DNA of 56,757 nucleotides from Lachnospiraceae bacterium (GTDB lineage: Bacteria; Bacillota; Clostridia; Lachnospirales; Lachnospiraceae), in contig JAIDOW010000099.1 of NCBI GenBank assembly GCA_029063085.1, forward strand, positions 1 through 56,757, in the 5' to 3' direction. Position 1 is the first letter of the stretch. Each line of letters opens with the position of its first letter. Below the pieces are notes generated by a model that had not been told where the DNA came from, did not search any database, and saw nothing but the letters and a program-made list of their open reading frames with translations. The position numbers were made by a program, and so were the translations under genes. Of this stretch, positions 22,081 to 24,678 are shown piece after piece.

Positions 22081-24120
22081 ATGAGATCAGAATGGAATGG
22101 TTTCACAGGTGGTAATTGGGAGAAGTTTGTTGATGTGCGTGACTTCATTCAGAAAAACTACACACCATATGAAGGTGATGACAGTTTCTTAGCAGGACCT
22201 ACCCAGAATACCACAGACTTATGGGCACAGGTTATGGATTTGACAAAGAAGGAAAGAGAAGCAGGCGGTGTGCTTGATATGGATACCAAAATTGTTTCTA
22301 CTTTAACTTCACACGGACCGGGATATCTTGACAAGGATAAGGAAACAATCGTAGGTTTCCAGACTGACAAGCCTTTCAAGAGAGGTATGAATGTATACGG
22401 CGGACTCCGTATGGCTATGAAGGCCTGCGAGGATAACGGTTACAAGGTAGATGAAGAAGTTGTAGATTTCTTCTCTAAACACAGAAAAACACACAACGAA
22501 GGTGTATTTGACGTATATGATGCAGAGATTAGAAAATGTCGTTCTAACCATATCGTTACTGGTCTTCCTGATGCTTACGGACGTGGACGTATTATCGGTG
22601 ATTACAGAAGAGTTGCTCTTTACGGTACAGACTTCTTGATTCAGGATAAGTTAGCACAGAAGGAATCCTTCGGTAATGTTTACACAGATGATGTAATCCG
22701 CGGTAAGGAAGAGATTTCTGAGCAGATCAAGGCTCTTAAAGAGTTAACAGCTATGGCTAAGGTTTATGGTTTTGATATTTCACAGCCTGCTAAGAACGTA
22801 CAGGAAGCAATTCAGTGGACATATTTCGGATATTTAGGAGCTGTTAAAGAGCAGAACGGTGCTGCAATGTCACTTGGACGTACAGCTACTTTCTTAGATG
22901 TATATGCAGAAAGAGATTTAGCTGCTGGTACATTTACTGAGGAGCAGATCCAGGAGTTCATCGACCACTTCGTTATGAAGTTAAGATGTGTTAAGTTTGC
23001 ACGTACACCTGAATACAATCAGATTTTCGCTGGTGATCCGGTTTGGGTAACTGAATCATTAGGTGGTATGGGTGTTGACGGTCGTACATTAGTATCTAAG
23101 ATGAGCTTCCGTTACCTTAACACTCTGAACAACTTAGGTACATCACCAGAGCCAAACTTAACAGTACTTTGGTCAACAAAAGCTCCTATGGGATGGAAGC
23201 AGTTCTGTGCTAAGATGTCTATCAAGTCATCTTCTATCCAGTATGAGAATGATGATATGATGAGACCTCTTCATGGTGATGATTACGGTATTGCATGTTG
23301 TGTATCTTCTATGGTTATCGGTAAAGAGATGCAGTTCTTCGGAGCACGTGCAAACCTGGCTAAATGTTTACTTTACGCTATCAACGGTGGTGTGGATGAG
23401 TGTACAGGCGTACAGGTAGGTCCTAAGTACCGTCCGGTTGAAGGCGATGTTCTTGATTATGATGATGTAATGGCTAAGTTTGATGATATGATGGATTGGT
23501 TAGCTGGTGTATATGTAAGTGCACTGAACATCATCCACTATATGCATGACAAATATGCTTACGAGAGAATCCAGATGGCATTACATGACAGAGATGTTAA
23601 GAGATACTTTGCAACAGGTGTTGCTGGTCTTTCTATCGTAGCTGACTCTTTATCAGCTATCAAGTATGCTAAGGTAAAACCGGTTCGTAATGAGCAGGGC
23701 ATCGTAGTAAGCTACGAGACAGAGGGTGATTTCCCTAAATATGGTAACAATGATGACCGTGTAGATGAGATTGCAACTTATATCGTAACTACATTCATGG
23801 ATAAGCTTAGAAAACGCCACGTATACCGTAACGGTATCCCTACCCAGTCAATCCTTACCATTACTTCTAACGTAACCTACGGTAAGAACACTGGTGATAC
23901 TCCTTGTGGACGTAAGCATGGTGCACCATTTGCTCCAGGTGCTAATCCACTTCATAAGAGAGATACCCACGGTGCTGTCGCTTCTTTGGCATCTGTAGCT
24001 AAGATTCCATTCAAGGATGCACAGGATGGTATTTCTAATACCTTCTCTATCATTCCGGGTGCTCTTGGTAAAGAGGATCAGGTATTTGCAGGAGATATCG
24101 ATCTTGATTTAAGCAAATAA
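22081..24120 (+). CDS. pflB: pyruvate formate-lyase catalytic body, lacking the glycyl-radical tail
   Basis: PFL converts pyruvate and CoA to acetyl-CoA and formate by a radical mechanism. This 679-residue protein matches the family from [19 protein letters not shown] start (here [15 protein letters not shown]) through the active-site Cys406-Cys407 pair ([10 protein letters not shown]) to [11 protein letters not shown]. It then stops after GDIDLDLSK, about 80 residues short of the usual about 750-760. The missing part, the radical domain with RVSGYAV, is encoded separately at 24436-24678. The stop is not an obvious frameshift: the following gene has its own ribosome binding site and the cut falls in a linker. 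AGGAGG lies 10 bases upstream of the ATG. Confidence 0.96.
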
Positions 24121-24144
24121 CAGGAACAATCAAACGGAAGAACT

Positions 24145-24170
24145 GATGCCTGTTTCTAACAGGCATTAGA
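24145..24170 (+). repeat. hairpin between pflB and the next gene
   Basis: ATGCCTG and CAGGCAT form a 7-bp stem with a 7-base loop in the 75-bp gap. No T tract follows, so it looks like an mRNA processing or stability element that could set different levels for the PFL parts. Confidence 0.5.
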
Positions 24171-24195
24171 TTCCCTTTATATTCGGAGGTTTATG

Positions 24196-24414
24196 ATGGC
24201 TGACGAGAAAAATCAGGTAGATGACATTGTGAAAATGTTAGATAACATGATGGATAAAGGTCATGGACACGTAAATGTATCCGTAGACGAAACGGTAGCG
24301 GCAGGAGAAAAAACTGCTGTTACATTAGGCTGTACCGACTGTGCAAAGGGTGACCTGGCATGCAGTGTCCCCACTTTGATGGAAGGTATGGACGAAGAGT
24401 TACACAAATATTGA
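24196..24414 (+). CDS. small cysteine-bearing protein related to the PFL radical domain
   Basis: This 72-residue protein lies between pflB and the free radical domain, with GGAGG six bases before the ATG at 24196. Its first 30 residues line up without gaps with the radical-domain protein downstream (both have QVD at 7-9, MLD at 14-16, G22, H25, N27, V28 and V30). It then diverges: instead of the RVSGYAV glycyl loop it has LGCTDCAKGDLAC, with Cys46, Cys49 and Cys56. I recognise no family function. A regulatory or repair partner of PFL, a metal-binding decoy tail or a redox sensor are possible readings. Confidence 0.85.
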   Translation: MADEKNQVDDIVKMLDNMMDKGHGHVNVSVDETVAAGEKTAVTLGCTDCAKGDLACSVPTLMEGMDEELHKY

Positions 24415-24435
24415 TTGAATAAGGAGGAATATAAA

Positions 24436-24678
24436 ATGGCAGCAAATTCACAACAGGTTGATAATTTAGTAAACATGTTAGACGGCTATATTGAAGAAGG
24501 TGGATATCATCTTAATGTTAACGTATTAAATCGTGATACATTATTAGATGCACAGAAGCATCCTGAGAATTATCCACAGTTGACAATCCGTGTTTCCGGT
24601 TATGCAGTTAACTTCATTAAGTTGACACCGGAACAGCAAAATGACGTAATCTCAAGAACATTCCATGAGAATATGTAA
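24436..24678 (+). CDS. free glycyl-radical domain of pyruvate formate-lyase (GrcA-like)
   Basis: This 80-residue protein equals the C-terminal end of a normal [38 protein letters not shown] and the terminal [21 protein letters not shown] helix. Gly55 in RVSGYAV is the residue that carries the radical (Gly734 in the E. coli enzyme). Because the adjacent pflB lacks this domain, the protein is probably an essential subunit, unlike E. coli GrcA/YfiD, which repairs a full-length enzyme. The start at 24436 follows AAGGAGG by 8 bases; an earlier TTG at 24415 is less likely. It sits 21 bp after the preceding gene. Confidence 0.94.

Follow-up and report, generated by a model that had tools for sequence, protein, structure and literature searches.

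Pyruvate formate-lyase (PFL) is split between separate genes in a Lachnospiraceae bacterium (GenBank assembly GCA_029063085.1), as read in a window of 56,757 nucleotides, the whole stretch of DNA analysed here (contig JAIDOW010000099.1). Judged from the sequences, the catalytic body carries the active-site cysteine pair and lacks the glycyl loop, the radical glycine resides on a separate and conserved subunit of 80 residues, and a third conserved component (a small middle protein in this locus, a tail on the body in others) accompanies most, not all, split bodies. The enzyme is very probably an obligate multi-part PFL that works in trans and in which the third component is functional. The reaction predicted for it is that of pyruvate and CoA to acetyl-CoA and formate.

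The original prediction had described a 679-residue body with the active-site pair Cys406-Cys407 and, 315 bp downstream, an 80-residue gene with its own ribosome binding site and a radical glycine, Gly55, in RVSGYAV, and these readings hold. The body gene occupies positions 22081-24120, with the codons of the cysteine pair at 23296-23301 (motif IACCVSS, aligned to the E. coli pair), and the radical gene lies at 24436-24678, with the glycine codon at 24598-24600. However, the gap between them (24121-24435) is not empty: it holds an overlooked gene of 72 residues at 24196-24414, which has its own ribosome binding site and is kept in relatives. The split into body and radical gene stands. The ribosome binding sites read from the sequence are AGGAGG for the body and radical genes and GGAGG for the middle gene. 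Farther downstream, at 24837-25604, follows pflA, encoding the PFL-activating radical SAM enzyme (255 residues; TIGR02493, 274.4 bits, cut-off 231.75). Body, middle and radical genes and pflA all lie in one direction, on the forward strand, and the unit reaches to pflA. No known RNA family matched the window in Rfam at gathering scores.

The body scored 1088.4 bits against the NCBIfam model of formate C-acetyltransferase (TIGR01255, cut-off 994.2), covering model positions 1-665 of 744. Of the features of that family, the curated score, the Cys-Cys active site and a nearby PflA are present, and the glycyl-radical domain on the same chain is missing. E. coli PflB is a close relative over the whole body and has the same cysteine pair and a PflA-type activase, but it is one chain of 760 residues (counted with Met), whereas the present enzyme is divided at about residue 682 of that numbering, body and radical subunit being separate chains, and has a third protein besides. 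The Pfam Gly_radical model (PF01228) is divided between the two proteins, its positions 1-50 lying in the body and 50-106 in the radical subunit. The break falls just ahead of the stretch with the last barrel strand, as assigned for E. coli PFL in PMC8683613, and the window body lacks this strand, the glycyl loop and the C-terminal part of the radical domain.

Split bodies share two further features. In 64 of 66, a new C-terminal segment follows ALGK, with a loose pattern around V-F-x-G-D-[IL] (L104 and L119 are the exceptions). An alignment of split bodies comprised 25 of the 66. A cysteine at E. coli position 442 (counted with Met), six residues past Arg436, was present in 64/64 split bodies as well as in L119 and L109, versus 1/17 fused ones. 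The closest solved sequences to the body are PDB entries 38la and 38lb (Formate acetyltransferase), compared here by search rows and alignments alone. The 38la chain stops right after SLGKED, which is where the split body L119 stops, approximately 12 residues before the end of the window body, and 38lb runs on for some 43 residues without similarity to the tail of the split body L103. At E up to 0.1, a search with the radical subunit hit neither entry.

The radical subunit belongs to an existing NCBI family, autonomous glycyl radical cofactor GrcA3 (NF038360; score 161.5, cut-off 158), and falls well short of the GrcA/YfiD model (TIGR04365; 101.8, cut-off 170). The free domain is a real separate gene, as had been proposed; its GrcA3 naming had been overlooked. 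Its RVSGYAV motif is identical to the radical sequence of E. coli PflB, and the glycine is invariant in 19 of 19 aligned radical subunits. As in YfiD/GrcA, a free glycyl-radical domain would serve a body without its own, and the C-terminal part of YfiD (6owr) aligns to the radical subunit. However, YfiD mends a full-length PFL after damage, and its N-terminal half is disordered, whereas here no full-length PFL was found and the subunit, with 80 residues in all, lacks the N-terminal extension of about 60 residues. The name GrcA3 implies a repair cofactor, whereas this protein is the only source found of a PFL radical glycine.

The middle protein resembles the radical subunit in part. Its N-terminal half is like the N-terminus of that subunit, and homology extends over about 32 positions (hhalign probability 95.4%, E 1.9e-8). 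The radical loop RVSGYAV, and with it membership of PF01228, is absent; it is replaced, typically, by GCTDC-x6-C-x2-PTL-x2-G-x-D, hereafter the Cys module (AC-x-x-P-T-L), which in the window protein makes up the C-terminal half with Cys46, Cys49 and Cys56. In an alignment of 43 of the 69 distinct middle proteins, D16, G24, H25, C49, A55, C56, P59 and D66 are invariant, Cys49 and Cys56 being the only invariant cysteines (43/43). Across all 69, three cysteines occur in 58, four in 6 and two in 5, with varying spacing, so that the four-cysteine set of iron-sulfur ligation is not a property of the family. Start codons were chosen by rule, and some are uncertain.

None of the 43 proteins matched Pfam at E up to 0.01, and neither a Pfam nor an NCBIfam family of its own was found for the middle protein. 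GrcA3 was weakly matched by 17 of the 43; the window protein did so over residues 5-30, with a score far under the cut-off. Searches of PDB, Pfam and PHROGs returned no convincing relative (best PDB matches, E 0.36 or worse), and an AlphaFold model of the middle protein alone had low confidence (mean pLDDT 64.4). In 8 of 8 pairwise comparisons of the middle gene, dN was 0.08-0.15 versus dS above 1.2, most dS values being saturated. By this substitution pattern, the gene is under purifying selection and reads as a real gene.

To follow the split beyond the window, we scanned bacterial and archaeal genomes with the radical subunit and took the best 80 of at least 584 loci; the sample therefore leans to near relatives. 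Among these best 80, a body end could be read in 55 loci; every one of them is split and none is fused. The order body-middle-radical is found in 52 of the 55, and the other 3 lack the middle gene and carry a Cys tail on the body instead; of the rest of the 80, 23 hold the radical gene alone and 2 the middle gene without a body end. In all 52 loci with both a body end and a middle gene, among the same best 80 of at least 584, the order is fixed; one further locus (L106, genome G192) has the middle gene after the radical gene. The comparison of gene order in relatives that the original prediction had suggested thus came out in favour of the split, which, judged across these loci, is a conserved trait and not an error. 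A pseudogene, a frameshift or an assembly error is rejected, since 55 of 55 loci with a body end are split alike.

In a class-wide sample of 243 genomes, a PFL body was detected in 130 at E up to 1e-100, and 14 of these, the host included, are split. The other class frames listed are 728-825 residues long, save one of 665 residues at a contig edge; 16 of the long frames were read and end in a radical domain, and for the others frame length was the sole ground for calling them fused. Two genomes (G092 and G119) had matches outside those listed, and the frame of G013 (778 residues with a TGA) was left out. In a phylum-wide sample of 299 genomes, a tail-bearing body used as query at E up to 1e-290 matched 33 genomes, and a split-length frame was seen only in G134 and the host. 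A tree of 73 bodies, built by a quick method with 28 of the 66 split bodies, grouped 27 of the 28 split rows behind a single branch (SH-aLRT 99.7) that lies within the fused PFLs, this group of 27 having been named after the tree was viewed. Among its members are records that bear the labels Lachnospiraceae, Erysipelotrichaceae and Clostridiaceae. L119, the one split body outside the group, sits with two fused rows, and a single clade of all 28 was not rejected (p-AU 0.48). The body of L107 (genome G233), which is tail-bearing and has an in-frame stop at about residue 290, reflecting sequencing error or decay, was kept as two pieces and left out as a body row. In another locus, L017, a block of about 40 bp stands twice between body and middle gene, and each copy ends, by eye, like the last body codons.

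The third component takes more than one form. Among cultured gut bacteria, Eisenbergiella tayi (L032) carries the middle gene and Claveliimonas bilis (L079) the tail. Of the 243 class genomes, 8 have a true middle gene, and in all 8 the body is split (7 with a body among the class matches, host included; in G232 the body end lies at a contig edge); five further class genomes matched weakly through the N-terminus of the radical domain and were not counted. Of the 15 split class genomes, G232 counted, 8 have the middle gene, 4 have a module tail on the body (G276, G128, G149 and G233, the last with the internal stop) and 3 have neither (G226, G277 and G223), although G226 has a short tail with two adjacent cysteines only. 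The third component therefore cannot be indispensable everywhere. In the four tail genomes, the middle profile was answered only by the radical subunit's own N-terminus, and thus gene and tail exclude each other there.

From the 69 middle proteins we built a Cys-module profile and searched 11,188 ORFs of loci L007-L125 with it. Besides 70 short (middle) ORFs, most of which had been used to build it, only 4 ORFs responded at E < 1 (0.004-0.06), and each of these is the tail of a split body (L107, L079, L105 and L103). Against the last 60 residues of 82 bodies, the profile additionally recognized L102 (E 0.002) and, barely, L025 (0.66); no fused body responded at E < 1, nor did L075. The tails of L025 and L075 (CPTCADIPNI and CPSCANIPNI) were placed by eye. 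In a tree of the 82 bodies, the tail occurs at three places, implying at least three changes, and each of the seven module tails read keeps at least two cysteines. The tail forms have neither the helix nor the strand, yet the module is kept. The strongest indication that the module acts on the body is its occurrence both in trans, on a separate protein, and in cis.

Within the limits of the data, the free domain is obligatory, as originally suggested. The host genome (3.34 Mb, 111 contigs, 96.45% complete) yielded one PFL-like match, and the suggested search for a full-length PFL found neither a fused PFL nor a second body, which at this completeness is not absolute; the same holds for the test for a repair protein of the YfiD/GrcA kind, as no full-length PFL to repair was found. 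Five host proteins matched Gly_radical: the two window pieces, a free 80-residue domain on contig C41 and two long proteins, which we take, from their sequences, to be class III (anaerobic) ribonucleotide reductases. A second full-length pflB in the host is thus rejected on the searches of this 96.45% complete genome, the remaining long matches being read as ribonucleotide reductases.

Among 17 split genomes checked, all keep the free radical gene, and 16 show no fused PFL-type radical domain; the exception, G277, has one (750-residue frame, 59% identity). The remaining radical-domain matches in the 17 are frames of 382-908 residues with 33-52% identity, which we take for different glycyl radical enzymes, each with a domain of its own. 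Thirteen of the 17 are class genomes, of which 12 have one PFL match and G277 has two, in agreement with the 16 genomes without a fused PFL-type domain. The circumstances that might have overturned the original prediction, namely a sequencing error, a recent stop or a second intact pflB, were not encountered: relatives share the split, and no second pflB was found. The split body of G277 (L109) sits on a long branch, lacks the Cys module and is in the only checked split genome with a fused PFL; it may be drifting or repurposed.

How such an enzyme would operate can be outlined from the parts. The radical subunit would slot its HLNVNV strand and its glycyl loop into the barrel that the body leaves open, PflA would generate the radical on the docked subunit and, once oxygen had cleaved the glycine, a fresh radical subunit would replace the broken one. 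Andorfer and colleagues (PMC8683613) report that binding of YfiD to E. coli PFL cut at residue 695 was not detectable by ITC and that the radical yield was 32-fold lower, whereas the complexes once activated had wild-type activity; they conclude that residues 696-733 constitute a recognition element, the first 60 residues of YfiD also aiding binding. Catalysis in trans is therefore plausible, since cut E. coli PFL with YfiD, as reported there, is a direct precedent. The natural split body is cut slightly earlier than the construct and its radical subunit lacks the YfiD extension, and thus docking would need a substitute; the obvious candidate is the middle protein, which is similar to the beginning of the stretch that is lacking, or else the tail. 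By analogy, the middle protein or tail may do the docking job that residues 696-733 of E. coli PFL do for YfiD, an assignment that falls somewhat short of probable. From the same resemblance, body plus middle protein would look like a hard-wired form of oxygen-cleaved PFL, with the radical subunit as its spare part. In its full extent, this is a tentative picture of a lineage-wide three-part PFL fixed in the cleaved-and-repaired state, with a stump-like middle protein, a disposable radical subunit activated by PflA and present in some strains as a second copy beside a Crp/Fnr-type regulator, and the Cys module as a new guarding or docking element.

Other roles for the third component were weighed against docking. 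Because its N-terminal half copies the N-terminus of the radical subunit, the middle protein could compete for the same slot, and, with the Cys module in place of the radical loop and the module capable of being a covalent part of the body, it might act as a plug that fills the empty strand slot and active site and shields the cysteine pair until displaced by the docking radical subunit; in a variant for the dimer, middle protein or tail could mark the half-site that stays radical-free. However, the tails keep the module without helix and strand, so that occupancy of the slot is not a shared feature, and we regard the plug as rather unlikely. A redox or metal subunit, with a disulfide switch or an iron-sulfur site, would be in line with the two invariant cysteines in 43 of 43 aligned proteins, the three cysteines in 58 of 69 and four in 6, and the pair or more in each of the seven tails. 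Benzylsuccinate synthase and 4-hydroxyphenylacetate decarboxylase have small iron-sulfur subunits, which like the middle protein are small Cys-containing partners of a glycyl radical enzyme, and keep the radical domain in the large subunit. But 5 of the 69 proteins have two cysteines only, the spacing varies, the number is too low for the usual four-cysteine cluster within one chain, and neither a Pfam match nor a convincing PDB relative was found; a role of this kind is clearly improbable.

Two readings would deprive the locus of a multi-part enzyme. The N-terminal half of the middle protein is clearly related to the radical subunit, and the middle gene could in principle be a vestigial, functionless partial duplicate of the radical gene, but purifying selection, the same gene order in all 52 loci that show both a body end and a middle gene (best 80 of at least 584) and the strongly conserved C-terminal module, found also in cis on the body, make this very improbable. 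Likewise, the small protein bears the name GrcA3, after repair proteins, and might be only a YfiD-like repair protein next to a body that is a truncated pseudogene or a sequencing error. This is hardly tenable given that 55 of 55 loci among the best 80 of at least 584 are truncated alike, that 64 of 66 split bodies have the new C-terminal segment, that 27 rows form a clade and that the host has no full-length PFL that we could find to repair. A PFL that necessarily works in trans and whose third component is functional is accordingly the reading we prefer.

The idea of an exchangeable radical subunit, put forward with the original prediction, gains indirectly from the second free radical gene of the host, which lies on contig C41 downstream of a Crp/Fnr-type gene (1441-1683 and 1831-2610 of L001, respectively), but two radical copies occur in only 4 of 26 genomes of the genus. 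Where at least 900 bp of upstream sequence was present, 7 of 19 solitary radical genes adjoin a Crp/Fnr-type gene on the same strand, versus 0 of 57 operon loci, which are a weak control because body or middle gene stands upstream by definition and many loci are short. This arrangement is consistent with some strains drawing replacement radical subunits from a source under its own regulation. Cysteine positions were read in five regulators beside solitary radical genes, and a -CSK- cysteine and a C-x3-C pair recur; by sequence, these regulators could be redox sensors. One contig (L066) carries two solitary radical genes, at 2385-2639 and 5517-5771, about 3 kb apart.

PFL holds a central place in fermentation, and its backbone is cut by oxygen at the radical glycine. 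With the damaged part present, by nature, as a small subunit of its own, the spare-part idea can be put to the test directly in a native system; such an enzyme also offers an accessible handle on recognition, activation and guarding of the radical subunit and may help to explain how anaerobes withstand oxygen damage to radical enzymes. The middle protein, for its part, is a specific lead on the job of residues 696-733 of E. coli PFL. If named by family, the pieces would read as a formate acetyltransferase, a small protein without a name and a repair cofactor, and a multi-subunit enzyme would go unseen. The system appears to be known in part already, GrcA3 being a named family and 38la and 38lb looking, by sequence, like bodies without a radical domain. 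None of the literature matches listed describes a split PFL or the middle protein, and GrcA3 was absent, bioRxiv and most subscription journals lying outside the search. That a split PFL has been described elsewhere is quite possible, as the two PDB entries suggest. The third component is an unnamed family, for which no resembling PDB chain was found.

The regions around the genes contain several candidate control elements. A promoter-like site, TTGACG-17-TATAAT, lies at 21976-22004 on the forward strand, 77 bp upstream of the body gene; it matches 11 of 12 positions, although the scan overall finds no more such sites than in shuffles, and the motif is present in 12 of 12 upstream regions examined, with TTGACGTGTATACAAT...TATAAT conserved. 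Upstream of it, at 21936-21959 and with no strand assigned, is the palindrome TTTTGTACT-N6-AGTACAAAA, a possible operator, which has its sole exact copy in the host genome here and recurs in 5 of the 12 regions. The embedded TGTATACA in the pfl promoter region resembles an operator of GntR/FadR-type repressors. Between body and middle gene, a 12-pair hairpin (24143-24169, forward strand) might set the ratio of body to small subunits; hairpins are present at this position in some relatives and absent in others with short gaps. Hairpin and palindrome were rejected as universal elements, each being missing from part of the relatives' regions compared. The gene directly after pflA, at 25762-25950, specifies a small ferredoxin-like protein that has two CxxCxxC motifs and might supply the activase with electrons.
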